A stretch of 64,000 nucleotides of DNA from Citreicoccus inhibens. Lineage in GTDB: Bacteria > Myxococcota > Myxococcia > Myxococcales > Myxococcaceae. The DNA lies in NCBI RefSeq assembly GCF_019039035.1, contig NZ_JAHNZT010000021.1, positions 62,001 to 126,000 on the forward strand. The letters are read 5' to 3'. Under the pieces are notes generated by a model. It did not search any database and was not told the origin of the DNA. It saw only the letters and a list, made by a program, of their open reading frames with translations. The position numbers and the translations under genes were made by a program. How positions within the stretch are numbered: position 1 is the first letter of the stretch; each line of letters opens with the position of its first letter. This document shows positions 46,323 to 58,456 of this stretch, piece by piece.

Positions 46323-48689
46323 ATGCATCGAGAGACTTTTTCATCCCGAGAGAGGCGCCTCGGGGTCCTGCTGCCCTGGCTGCTGCTGAGCGCGCTGACG
46401 GGCCTCGCGGGCTGCAAGCCTTCCGAGTCCAGCCAGGCCGAGCCGCTCAGCACCGCGGTGTTCTCCATCACCGTCGACGAGCCGGTGGCTGGCGGTGACA
46501 CCGGTGGCGCGGGGCGCGTGTCTTCGTTCGCCAACTTCTCCTTCACGAGCGTGGCGCGCATCCGCATCGACGTGTTGGAGACGGCGACCGGCACCCCGCT
46601 CTACAAGGGGATGGACCTCACGGTGGCGGGAGGGACGTGGTCGGGCACCGTGCCCTTCCTGCCTCGGAACAAGGGCCTCACCTTCCAGGCGCGCGCCACG
46701 GGGCTCAAGGGCGAGCTGTACTTCTCGGGCAGCACGGACAAGACGCTCACGGGCGACAACGAGAGCGTGGTCATCGTGTTGGCGCCGGTGAGTGACGGGG
46801 AGACCGTCTCCCTACCGCGCATCAAGAAGATCACCATCCCGGCCGAGTTCCCTCCGGGCAAGCGCGGCAACATCGACTTCCTGGTGGAGGCCAACACGGG
46901 GGAGCCGCTGCGCTACGTCATCACCGCCGGGAGCGGGGGCGGCTCGTTCTCGCCGGTGCAGGGAACCCTGCAACTGCTGGGCACCACCGGCACCTTCGTC
47001 AGCCAGTACGCGCCGCCCTCGGTGACGACCGAGACCGAGTTCACCCATGAGGTGCTCGTCACGAACTCGGCGGGCCACTCCGTCAAGACGACCTTCAAGA
47101 CGAAGGTGCTGCCGGTCGACCCGTCGTCCGACGCCATCGACACGCACGTGTCCGTGCTCTTCAACCCGGTCATCCAATCCCTCAAGGCCACGCGGCGGAT
47201 GGGAACTGGGGACGTCATCTGGGAGGCGACCGTCGCGGATGACAGCGCGGCCTCGACGCTGACCTATGCGTGGAGCTTCAACCCGCAGGGCGCGGTCGAC
47301 CCCGTGCCTGTCTTCGCGGGTCAGTCCAACCCCACCACGATGCACGGCTACTCCTCGGCGCTCCAGGGCGAGCTGGTGCTCCAGGTGACGGACGTGGACG
47401 GCGGGCAGACGACGCTGAAGTACGTGCTCACGCCCGGCCAGTTCCCGGATGCCCCCTATGCGGTGGGCAACCTCAACGGGCTCATCTCCATTCAGGCCGG
47501 GGAGAGCCACACCTGCGTGCTGTTCGACAACGCGAACGTGCGGTGCTGGGGCCTCAATGCCTCGGGGCAGCTGGGCTACGAGCACACCCTGGATATCGGC
47601 GACAACGAGCACCCGTACACCGCCGGCAACGTCAACCTCGTCGGCAACGCGACGCAGGTGGTGACGGGCGCCAGCCACACCTGCGCCCTGCTCGAAGGGG
47701 GCTTCGTGCGGTGCTGGGGCGGCAACGCGCATGGCCAACTGGGCTATGGCCACACCGCCAACATTGGCGACGGCGAGCCGGTCGCCAGCGAGGGCTATGT
47801 GGGCCTGGGAGGCCGCGCGGTGAAGCTCGCCGCTGGCGCGGAGCACACCTGCGCGGTCCTCAGCACGGGCAAGGTGCGCTGCTGGGGCGCCAACAGCCAG
47901 GGGCAGCTCGGCTACGGCCACACCCGCGACGTGGGGGACAACGAGTGGGTTTGGAGCGCGGGGGACGTGGACGTGGGCGGCCCGGTGCAAGACATCACCG
48001 CCGGGGCGTTCCACACCTGCGCGTTGCTCAGCACGGGCAAGGTGCGCTGCTGGGGACAGGCCGCGCTCGGCCAGCTCGGTTACGGGAACACGACTGCGAT
48101 TGGCGACAACGAGACGCCGGCCACGGCGGGCGACGTGGACGTGGGCGGGCCGGTCCTTCAGCTCAGCGCGGGCAAGGCGCATACGTGTGCCCTGTTGAGC
48201 ACCGGCCGGGTGGTCTGCTGGGGCTACAACGTCAACGGGCAGCTGGGCTACCCGGGCTATTACACGTGGCCCTATTACCCCTACTTCGACAACGTGGGCG
48301 ACACCGAGACGCCCGCGTCGGTCGGCTCCGTCGAGCTGTATGGCACGGCCATCCAGGTCGCCGCGGGCGCGGACCACACCTGCGCGTTGATGAGCTTTGG
48401 CGCAGTGAAGTGCTGGGGGTATGGCGCGTATGGCCAGCTTGGCTATGGAAAGAGCAGCACGCTCTCCACGCCGAACGCCGAAATCGTGAACCTGGGGGGC
48501 GCGTCGGCGTATGCCCTGACGGCGGGTGGCGCTCACACCTGCGCGTTGTTGAGCACGGGCAAGGCGCGGTGCTGGGGCCGCAACGACCATGGCCAGCTCG
48601 GCTACGCCAACACCCTCAACCTGGGGGATGACGAGCTGCCTTCCGCCGCGGGAGACATCCAGGTGCTCGCGCCTCCCGTGGGGCCCTGA
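46323..48689 (+). CDS. RCC1-repeat beta-propeller lipoprotein
   Basis: This encodes 788 residues. GGAG is seven bases before the ATG. The signal peptide ends in LAGC followed by Lys. Residues 50-380 are Ig-like beta domains (TEFTHEVLVTNSAGHSVKTT). From about 390 there are seven RCC1 repeats, each built on AGxxHTCALLSTGKVRCWG then NxxGQLGYG. Each repeat carries the paired Cys of the myxobacterial secreted RCC1 type, which likely form disulfides outside the cell. It is probably a surface binding or sensing propeller. The gene is divergent from the membrane-kinase operon and has a predicted sigma-54 promoter. Confidence 0.9.
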   Translation: MHRETFSSRERRLGVLLPWLLLSALTGLAGCKPSESSQAEPLSTAVFSITVDEPVAGGDTGGAGRVSSFANFSFTSVARIRIDVLETATGTPLYKGMDLTVAGGTWSGTVPFLPRNKGLTFQARATGLKGELYFSGSTDKTLTGDNESVVIVLAPVSDGETVSLPRIKKITIPAEFPPGKRGNIDFLVEANTGEPLRYVITAGSGGGSFSPVQGTLQLLGTTGTFVSQYAPPSVTTETEFTHEVLVTNSAGHSVKTTFKTKVLPVDPSSDAIDTHVSVLFNPVIQSLKATRRMGTGDVIWEATVADDSAASTLTYAWSFNPQGAVDPVPVFAGQSNPTTMHGYSSALQGELVLQVTDVDGGQTTLKYVLTPGQFPDAPYAVGNLNGLISIQAGESHTCVLFDNANVRCWGLNASGQLGYEHTLDIGDNEHPYTAGNVNLVGNATQVVTGASHTCALLEGGFVRCWGGNAHGQLGYGHTANIGDGEPVASEGYVGLGGRAVKLAAGAEHTCAVLSTGKVRCWGANSQGQLGYGHTRDVGDNEWVWSAGDVDVGGPVQDITAGAFHTCALLSTGKVRCWGQAALGQLGYGNTTAIGDNETPATAGDVDVGGPVLQLSAGKAHTCALLSTGRVVCWGYNVNGQLGYPGYYTWPYYPYFDNVGDTETPASVGSVELYGTAIQVAAGADHTCALMSFGAVKCWGYGAYGQLGYGKSSTLSTPNAEIVNLGGASAYALTAGGAHTCALLSTGKARCWGRNDHGQLGYANTLNLGDDELPSAAGDIQVLAPPVGP

Positions 48690-54586: not shown

Positions 54587-57500
54587 TCACTCGCGGAATG
54601 CAACAGGTCGTTCCGCGCGTGGGGCGTCGCTCGAGGGGCTCCACGACAGCCCACCGAAGGCGCGGAACGCGGGCGTCCCATATCCACGGCCGATGCCAGG
54701 GCCTGCGCCCAGGTGCACGGCGAGCCCGTTCTCGAAGCGGTATTTCAGCGCGCCGAGCAGCTCCAAGGGACGCTCCTCGGCGCGGTTCGCTTGCAAGCCC
54801 ATGCTCCCAGCGAGCGAGGCTTCCACGAGGAGCTGTCGCGCCTCACCGAGCGGAATCTCCGCGCCCAGTGCATACGTCAGCGCGTGGCCCACCTTCAGGT
54901 TGAGCAGGGACTCGGAGCGGCGGAGCACCACGCCCGCGTTGGCCATCAGGCGGATCCGTTCGTGTGCCCATTCGCCCACGAGTCGTGGCTGGAATGAGGG
55001 GCCGCTCTCTCCGAGGAAGTCCTTGCCGCCTGACGTGGGCAGCACGACGGGCGCGGACACGGCGAGGTGCAGTCCCTGTTGCGAGGACAGCAGCCTCAGC
55101 TTGGGAACAATGCGGATGTCTCCCAATCCCACACCAGACGTCCCCGAGGCCAGGCCGGGATCCGCGCTCCCGGCAGGCTGCGAGCCATGGCCCGTGATGG
55201 GAATGGCAATCCCCATCTCCACGCGCCCTCCCAGCGAGAGGGAGCCAAGGAAGTCCGCCGTGAGTTGATTCTTCACGAGCTGCGCGGAGTACTGCCCATC
55301 CATCAAGACGCTGAGCGGTTTGTCCGCGTAGTTGACGGAGACCCCGAACGAGGCGCTCAGGTGAGACGCGACCTGCGCGCTCTGGACGCCGAGCACGTCG
55401 AACGCGCCAGGGCCCGGCTTGTACTGCTGGGCATCAATGGCTTGCGATGCGCTGTCCTGGGCGCGAGAGGTCGAGCCCACGAGCACTGCGAGCACCGCGG
55501 CCATGCCCGTCAGCGAGCGGGCCTCGCCCCGCCGGCGAAGCATCCACGGGAGGAGGAGCAGCAGGAGTGCGAGTGGAGCGGCATCGCTCGGTCCCGTTGC
55601 GCCGCAGCCATGCCCCGCCACGGAGAAGAGATGTGTTCCCTCTTCGCCATCGCCGCTGCCGCCCGGATTGCCCGAGCCATCACCCCCGTTGCCCGAGCCG
55701 CCGTCGGTGTTGCCCCCGTTGCCGGAGCCGCCGTCGGTGTTGCCTCCGTTGCCGGAGCCGCCGTCGGTGTTGCCCCCGTTGCCGGAGCCGCCGTCGGTGT
55801 TGCCTCCGTTGCCGGAGCCGCCGTCGGTGTTGCCTCCGTTGCCGGAGCCGCCGTCGGTGTTGCCCCCGTTGCCGGAGCCGCCGTCAGCGTCTCCGCCGTT
55901 CCCCGTGCCGCCATCCGGGGTGCTGCCGTCGGTGTTGCCCCCGTTGCCGGAGCCGCCGTCAGCGTCTCCGCCGTTCCCCGTGCCGCCATCCGGGTTGCCG
56001 CCGTTGCCCGAACCCCCGTCCGTGTCGCCACCGTTCCCCGTGCCACCGTCGGCATCTCCGCCGTTGCCGGAGCCTCCACCGACGGTCCAGGCGTAGCGCG
56101 CAGGGGTCGGATCGACGTTCCCGGCGGCGTCGATGGCGCTCACCGCGAGCGTGTGCGCACCGTCCGCGAGGCCCGAGATGAATGACGGGTTCGAGCAAGG
56201 GACATACGCCTGTCCATCCACACTGCACACGTAGGTGACGCTGGGCTCCGAGGCGCTGAAGTCAAACACTGCCTGGGCCGTCGCCCCCGTGAGCGGCGGG
56301 CCCGCGTCGATGAACGTATCGGGCGCCACCGTGTCCACCTCGAAGGGCACCGTCACCGGCGTGCTCGTGTGGCCCACCGTGTCGGTGCTGGTCGCGGTCG
56401 CCGTGTGGCTGCCATCTGGAATCGGCTCGGGCGGGATGAACGTCCAGTGCCCCTGCTCATCCACGGGGATGGGCCCGTGCGCGATGCCGTCGATCTCCAG
56501 CGTCACGGTGCTGCCGGGGTCCGCCGTCCCCTCGAACGAGGTGTTCGCGGAGGGCGTGACGGTCAGCGTGACGGAGGGCGCGGTGGCGTCCGTGGCGAAC
56601 CCGAAGCCCGTCGCCGGGCTCACATTGCCCGCCGCGTCCTGCGCCGTCGCGCTCCCCGTGTGCGGTCCATCCATCAGCGGCGCCGAGGCCGTGCACGACC
56701 ACGCCCCGGAGGCGCTCGCCACGGCGGTGCACACGTGTGTGCCATCCACCACGACAGACACCGTGCTCCCCGGCTCGGCGGTGCCCGCGAACGTCGGCGT
56801 GTCACCGCCCAGGAGCGCGCCCTCCGTGGGCTGCGTCACCCCTGGCGCGGGCGGCAGCGTCAGCACCACGCGCGTGGGGTTCGCACCCTGGCCCTCACCC
56901 GGCGCGGAGCCCACGGTCTTCGCCACCGCGCCGAGCAGGCCCTGGCTGGTGACGAACGCCTGGTTGTCCACGGCCCCCGTCACGCCCGGCCGAACGACCA
57001 CGCGGAAGGACACGGTCGCGCCCTCCCCGGGCGCGAGCATCCCCCCCTGCGTCCCCGTCGCGCCGCTCCCGAGTCGGAAGACGAGCCGGTGCTGCCCCGC
57101 GTCGTACTCCGCTGAGTCATCCCCGGCGATGTCTGTCTTCACGCCCGCATTCGCGCCCGCGACGACCTGTAGCGAGCCCGGCACCAGCGCGACCTGCGGC
57201 GACAGCGGATCCACCAGCACCACCGAGACGCCCGTGTCCGTCCCCGTGTTGCGCGTCGTCAGGGTGTACTCGAGCACGTCGCCCGCGCGCGTACCGCCGT
57301 CCGGATGCGTGGCGAGCGTCCGCACCGACTTCACGGTGTGGTTGAAGTCCGGCTCCTGCGTGGAGATGGACGTGACGAACGCGCCCAACCAGTAGCCATC
57401 TCCCGTGGACGTCGCAGACACCGACGCGGACGTCTGCCCGCCCGACACGCGCGACGTCACGTCCACCACGCCCAGGTCCAACCCGGACATGCTCCCCGCC

Positions 57501-58456
57501 GTCCCCGTCAGCCGAGGCAGGTCCCCGGCGTTGCTCACCGGCTGCCCCAAGTGCGAGCGCGAGCCATTGAAGAAGTTTCCCTGGGGCCGCGCCGCGTCCG
57601 AGAGCGCCACGCCATTGAAGACGAGCTGGTCCCCGGTGATGGTGTTGTCACCCTCGTACGCAATGACACCCAGCTTCGCGCTGAAGCCCGACTGGGGAAC
57701 CAGGAAGCCCGACAGCGCCGTGTCCGTGCGCGACCCCGCGGCCACCTTGTCCAATCCGTCGAACAGGGTGAGGTTGCGCAGCGGCTCGCTGTCCAGCCGG
57801 TAGAAGACGATGAGCGACCAGCCCGTGAACGGATTCGCGTCATTGATGTTGCGCAGGTCGACCGCGTCCACCCCCGTCACGCCATAGATGCCCGGCCCCT
57901 GGGCCTGCAGGATGGCCGTCACGTCCGCCGAGGATTGATAGGCATACACGCCCTCCGCCGAGTGCACCTGCTCCGCATCCGACGACACCGCCTGCGTGAA
58001 GCCTCCCGGCCGTCGAAACGTGACCTGCGTGTCCGGAGACAAGGGCCCCGCCATGGCGGGGACGGAGCGGGTGGCGCCCCAGTACAGCCGCGCATAGGTG
58101 ACGAGCGCCCCCGCGGGCAGGGTGAGCATCGCCTGGCTGCTGCTCGCCGAGGGCGCCACTTGGAGGTCCGCGCGCGCGCTGCCCCCCTCCAGCGTCCAGA
58201 ACACGTCCGGCGCGGTGTCCGCGGTGGCCGTGCCGCAGGCGCCCACCGTCCCCACCACCGGCGCGGGGGTGCCCGCCGCGCACTCCTGCGCGAGCGTGTT
58301 TCCAATCAACACGAAGTCGCCATGCTGGTCCTCCTGATGGCGCAGCCCCGGCGCGGCACGTGACGCCACCGGGAGCAGGAAAACCAGCAAGGCCGCGAGC
58401 GAGAACGCCCGCGAGCGCGGAGCACGACACAAGGGGACGAGAGGGGGCGTTTGCAC
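54587..58456 (-). CDS. Secreted Ig/DUF11-like protein with MYXO-CTERM-like anchor fused to a beta-barrel module
   Basis: This encodes 1289 residues from the GTG at 58456. Parts in order: signal peptide ([17 protein letters not shown]); a 330-residue beta domain; a DUF11-like domain ([20 protein letters not shown]); Ig-like units ([18 protein letters not shown]); a Gly/Asn/Ser/Asp repeat linker; then [20 protein letters not shown] and [10 protein letters not shown], which have the Cys, membrane segment and Arg cluster of a MYXO-CTERM anchor. Unusually the frame continues for about 310 residues. A second signal-like segment ([19 protein letters not shown] at 55504) is followed by a barrel of the kind found in myxobacterial OmpA-family proteins, without the peptidoglycan-binding domain. 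It could be one fused protein, or the barrel could be started separately at 55504. Confidence 0.8.
55662..56079 (-). repeat. 30-base tandem repeat encoding [10 protein letters not shown] units
   Basis: About 14 tandem copies of a 30-base unit (gttgccggagccgccgtcgg plus ten bases on the plus strand) lie inside the large secreted gene. The block from about 55691 to 55890 is nearly perfect, differing only by C/T at one position, and copies toward 56079 vary more. Units are a whole number of codons, so copy-number changes keep the frame. It is a minisatellite, not a CRISPR array, as there are no spacers. Confidence 0.85.

Follow-up and report, generated by a model that had tools for sequence, protein, structure and literature searches.

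The gene at positions 54587 to 58456 on the minus strand of the window, the 64,000-nucleotide stretch of Citreicoccus inhibens DNA analyzed here, joins an adhesin-like ectodomain, an internal MYXO-CTERM sorting tag, a second signal-peptide-like segment and a TraB-like outer-membrane barrel in one open frame. Judged from its sequence, the product probably is a precursor that myxosortase and signal peptidase I would cut into a surface-anchored adhesin and a barrel, the two then being outer-membrane partners. The same order of parts is found in a paralogue of the same genome, here called C30, and in about 80 relatives. The initial annotation had read the middle of this protein as an internal MYXO-CTERM followed in frame by a second signal-like segment and a barrel, and both this order and its coordinates proved right.

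A sorting tag and a barrel in one frame

The frame starts with GTG and encodes 1289 amino acids, and its third-position GC is as expected for coding over the full length. From the N-terminus to the C-terminus, the following features were assigned.

58352..58456, minus strand: predicted N-terminal signal peptide of the precursor, residues 1-35, read from the sequence as a hydrophobic core followed by A-S-R-A
56087..58351, minus strand: adhesin-like ectodomain, residues 36-790, with an unnamed N-terminal region, a DUF11-type repeat and three Big_13 Ig-like domains
55649..56083, minus strand: low-complexity Gly/Asn/Asp-rich linker with SGNGGDTDG-type repeats, residues 792-936, from the sequence
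55529..55609, minus strand: internal MYXO-CTERM, residues 950-976, consisting of Gly950-Cys951, a hydrophobic helix and an Arg cluster (TIGR03901 and TIGR03382)
55460..55504, minus strand: second signal-peptide-like segment of 15 residues (985-999), ending in SRA before Q1000, with a predicted signal peptidase I cut between A999 and Q1000
54602..55459, minus strand: TraB-like outer-membrane barrel of about 12 strands, without OmpA domain (NF033763 positions 4-298 of 522; AlphaFold2 model and Foldseek match to FapF)
54587..54589, minus strand: stop codon shortly past the barrel; the sister-species copy likewise ends right past the barrel

In the ectodomain, Pfam recognized Big_13 in three stretches (E=1e-29), and the NCBIfam matches were Ca_tandemer and a DUF11-type repeat. 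Identity to the ectodomains of the relatives L029, L034, L041, L023, L123 and L122 ranges from 47 to 59%. No relative of solved structure was found for the N-terminal ectodomain by sequence search. Elsewhere in the window, positions 46323-48689 encode a 788-residue protein that consists mostly of RCC1-type repeats.

The MYXO-CTERM segment scored 22.4 bits against TIGR03901 and 21.9 bits against TIGR03382 (curated cut-offs 20 and 15.85, respectively), and a whole-genome scan returned the same internal tag with 21.8 bits. It lies above the cut-offs as a segment or in the genome scan, and is unlisted when the entire 1289-residue protein is scanned with NCBIfam. On score, the window protein belongs to the MYXO-CTERM class, and its cleavage by myxosortase is predicted; the genome has an mrtX gene, and the encoded MrtX reaches 445 bits (cut-off 180). 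Unlike in usual MYXO-CTERM proteins, the tag is not placed at the extreme C-terminus, and roughly 310 residues follow it. This genome contains about 21 MYXO-CTERM tags, all of which end 12-31 residues before the stop codon except those of the window gene and of C30, and both internal tags sit directly before a TraB-like barrel. From the tag positions across the genome, the joining of tag and barrel exceeds chance.

Fused members always have this stretch ahead of the barrel, and the initial annotation had pointed out that it might be a simple linker. It would then be a mere linker or plug of one continuous barrel family, without sorting function. We reject this very improbable reading because the stretch passes two curated MYXO-CTERM models and the Gly-Cys of the tag and the Ala-Gln of the predicted cut site are invariant in 17 fused proteins (see below). 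Furthermore, the barrel occurs without the stretch in barrel-only relatives, split relatives have the tag at the end of a separate upstream protein, and the modeled barrel appears to close without the stretch, for which the model has low confidence.

A barrel related to the N-terminal half of TraB

Residues 991-1276 match the NCBIfam profile exchanger_TraB (NF033763) at positions 4-298 of 522 with 89-94 bits, far below its cut-off of 700. The barrel corresponds to the N-terminal half of the TraB profile only and does not qualify as a full-length TraB. Pfam gave no match to an OmpA peptidoglycan-binding domain in the window protein at E up to 1, and none to an autotransporter or inverse autotransporter barrel family; a predicted inner-membrane hairpin of two hydrophobic helices is present. 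According to the AlphaFold2 model (mean pLDDT 76, with much of the barrel above 90), the barrel would have about 12 strands, and Foldseek found its best solved-structure matches in FapF and a COG4313 channel. The earlier assignment to an OmpA-family barrel is hence not borne out, as the model is FapF-like and not of the 8-stranded OmpA type. Structure prediction had been proposed as a check; the model of the N-terminal ectodomain was too poor for use (pLDDT 58). FapF and COG4313 12-strand channels are the best fold match, but share only 12-16% identity with the window barrel, and no amyloid operon was noted for the window gene; a common function is not implied.

The frame ends directly past the barrel in L072, L106 and L107 as well, and at least 150 further residues are present in 75 of the 80 relatives. 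L106, L107 and L072 are further fused members without OmpA, and they lie in two separate branches of the tree. No relatives of the barrel were found on plasmids.

Conservation of the junction

When 17 diverse fused proteins were aligned, few columns proved invariant. These include the Gly-Cys pair of the tag and the Ala-Gln pair at the predicted signal peptidase cut, whereas the loop and the second helix between these sites differ in both sequence and length. All 80 scored fused relatives carry the pattern [AVSTG]-x-[AGS]-Q after the second segment, a count in which the relatives share ancestry and so are not independent, from which L060 was left out because its Arg pattern was not recognized, and for which the pattern is permissive, with a background of 9% in random barrel windows and 34% in shuffled segments. 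The loop before the second segment is strongly positive in all scored relatives, with a net charge of +3 to +6. The second segment is homologous to the N-terminal signals of barrel-only relatives. As these relatives keep their own N-terminal signal, the barrel should be exportable with that segment as signal. Both predicted processing signals are intact in the window protein.

These features also bear on the question whether the chain is cut at all. As in autotransporters or inverse autotransporters, a single uncut protein might place its barrel in the outer membrane and its ectodomain on the surface. An adhesin joined to a barrel does resemble intimin and autotransporters, and the closest fold, FapF, is a secretion channel. 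However, in such a chain the positive loop between two hydrophobic helices would be expected to hold the middle part at the inner membrane. The two cut sites are also conserved, and the existence of split relatives argues that a covalent link is not needed. We hence regard an uncut protein as unlikely and favor the cleaved precursor.

The sister-species copy of the window gene has the same reading frame, and a comparison of the two shows 17 synonymous codon changes and 1 nonsynonymous change at the junction versus 119 synonymous and 62 nonsynonymous changes in the ectodomain (Fisher p about 0.014-0.015). The junction is the best conserved part between the sister species. Two genes might also have been joined by a fault in sequencing or assembly or by gene decay, and one sister-species search indeed gave a TGA inside the match, but this proved to be the normal stop codon after the barrel. 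The sister genome and about 80 relatives all have the frame unbroken, and synonymous changes predominate. A sequencing error, which the initial annotation had named among the ways its reading could fail, or gene decay has practically no probability left and is refuted by the relatives.

The initial annotation had further offered two overlapping translation units as an explanation. Translation would restart at the ATG at 55504, in frame after the MYXO-CTERM, and yield, in addition to the long chain, a separate barrel that brings its own signal peptide. This ATG is exactly the start of the second hydrophobic segment, and split relatives begin a separate gene at that place. At -2.0 kcal/mol, however, its Shine-Dalgarno pairing falls short of the random median (-3.0), and no Shine-Dalgarno-like site was found; this test is weak, since the annotated GTG start performs no better. 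Of more weight is that an ATG precedes the second hydrophobic core in only 10 of 80 relatives. In C30, no ATG lies between Arg cluster and second segment, and inside the core only TTG and GTG occur. An internal start thus has little in its favor.

Fused, split and barrel-only relatives

The C30 gene (L009, G000:C30) encodes 2993 amino acids with the same order of parts, namely ectodomain, internal MYXO-CTERM, second signal and TraB-like barrel, to which TSP3 repeats and an OmpA domain are added. Within the order, 126 of 145 searched genomes had a match. When 195 genomes of the phylum were searched, at least 75 Myxococcales genomes among the listed matches had one long frame in which the match covers tag and barrel, and the joining of tag and barrel was also found in other classes of the phylum.

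Homologues that carry the two halves as separate genes, whose existence the initial annotation had suggested to look for, were indeed found. In three Myxococcus relatives (L041, L023 and L123), the halves are adjacent genes: the upstream gene encodes a protein that is 47-50% identical to the window ectodomain and has a terminal MYXO-CTERM, and a barrel gene with its own signal peptide lies directly downstream. In the distant relatives L199, L203 and L215, the tag is followed by a stop codon and then by the barrel gene. The L041 contig is recorded as Comamonas sp. KCTC 72670; it carries typical Myxococcus genes, among them the split pair and an NtrC regulator, groups with Myxococcus in the tree and looks mislabeled or contaminated.

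Barrel-only relatives point to losses. In L041, the adhesin and barrel pair is found downstream of a gene for an NtrC-type regulator, whereas in L010 (G000:C38, in the genome of the window itself) and in L025 from M. xanthus the barrel gene directly follows such a regulator. From this gene order, the ectodomain gene probably was lost at the L010 and L025 loci. The barrel-only relative L010 carries OmpA. Several Corallococcus barrel-only genes have apparent leftover pieces of the ectodomain or tag ahead of the signal, which points to their origin by deletion from a fused ancestor. A quick tree suggested about six switches between fused and separate states, a rough number as many forks are open. 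In L120 (G047:C1:3478500-3482500), an ectodomain fragment and a barrel are found in different open reading frames, as if a fused gene had been broken.

A possible route of processing

We infer topology, both cuts, lipidation, complex formation and function of the window protein from its sequence and from known systems. The Sec machinery would export the adhesin half through the N-terminal signal peptide, until the MYXO-CTERM helix halts transfer and the Arg-rich loop stays cytoplasmic. The second hydrophobic segment could then take the role of an internal signal peptide, by which the barrel half reaches the periplasm. As a result, the chain would form a hairpin in the inner membrane, with the tag helix running down, the Arg loop in the cytoplasm and the second helix running up. 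Signal peptidase I would cut after SRA, between A999 and Q1000, and the myxosortase MrtX beside the presumably lipidated Cys951. MrtX cleaves the MYXO-CTERM of TraA, and such proteins depend on type II secretion for transport to the surface (PMC11980579). As with TraA, the type II system might display the adhesin on the cell surface, and the barrel would be placed in the outer membrane by the BAM machinery. Genes for GspD, the type II secretin, and for signal peptidase I are present in the genome.

Made in a 1:1 ratio from one chain, adhesin and barrel could associate in a complex like that of TraA and TraB, which form 1:1 complexes (PMC12045341). Where PMC12045341 cites other work on this point, TraB without OmpA is described as supporting adhesion and not membrane exchange. 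A member without OmpA would be expected to adhere and not to grip the cell wall, and the window protein, by analogy, would be an adhesion-only version of TraAB.

Relation to known systems

The initial annotation had compared the gene with a fused TraA and TraB pair. The comparison holds for the layout, a MYXO-CTERM surface protein plus a barrel with a TraB-like N-terminal half, and separate adjacent homologues exist, but the ectodomain does not resemble TraA. In the window protein, Pfam and NCBIfam found Ig-like and DUF11 domains only, and the PA14-like domain and Cys-rich repeats of TraA are absent. TraA and TraB are moreover two proteins, and TraB has an OmpA domain that the window protein is without. 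The traA and traB genes of M. xanthus overlap by four bases (PMC3325183). In the genome of the window, the true traA-traB pair consists of separate genes on another contig.

A precursor of related logic is the cytochrome b/c1 polyprotein (fbcH) of Bradyrhizobium, in which one gene with an internal signal sequence cut by signal peptidase gives rise to two partner proteins. Unlike the products proposed here, these are inner-membrane respiratory proteins, and a sorting tag is absent. No relevant work on internal signal peptides of bacterial polyproteins turned up in a literature search.

Closest to the window gene is MXAN_5598 of Myxococcus xanthus, for which an atypical internal MYXO-CTERM was described; the authors suggested gene fusion and processing and compared it with TraAB (PMC11980579, mBio, 2025). 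Fusions of this kind are hence not wholly new. Like the window gene, MXAN_5598 combines a large adhesin region, an internal MYXO-CTERM and an outer-membrane barrel in one frame. In contrast, it has an OmpA domain and adjoins ftsA and ftsZ, whereas the window gene is a different paralogue, located elsewhere and without OmpA. Among the proteins of outer-membrane vesicles, MXAN_5598 was listed as a single "OmpA domain protein" (PMC4158809), which fits a cut and an uncut protein alike. What the present analysis adds is that such fusions recur across the phylum, that the second signal is conserved, and that fused, split and barrel-only states exist side by side. Recurrence, conserved second signal and split relatives were not found in the text of PMC11980579 or in the literature searched, which covered the main texts of mostly open-access papers.

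We lean, though only slightly, toward a more general view, in which Myxococcota would have phylum-wide outer-membrane polyproteins in which an internal tag and signal peptide allow one chain to be cut into a lipid-anchored adhesin and its own barrel at a fixed 1:1 ratio. Evolution would switch freely between this and the two-gene form, and the branch without OmpA would be an adhesion-only TraAB machine. If so, cleavable adhesin-barrel precursors fix the ratio of two outer-membrane partners that use different export routes, and MXAN_5598, remarked on as a single oddity, belongs to a large family that comes naturally in fused, split and barrel-only forms. Such forms could then serve to test the assembly of TraAB-like complexes and the contribution of an OmpA anchor. 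Within C. inhibens, the C30 gene sits between ftsA and ftsZ and is thus the likely counterpart of MXAN_5598; an adhesin gene is here kept inside the division cluster, as reported for MXAN_5598.
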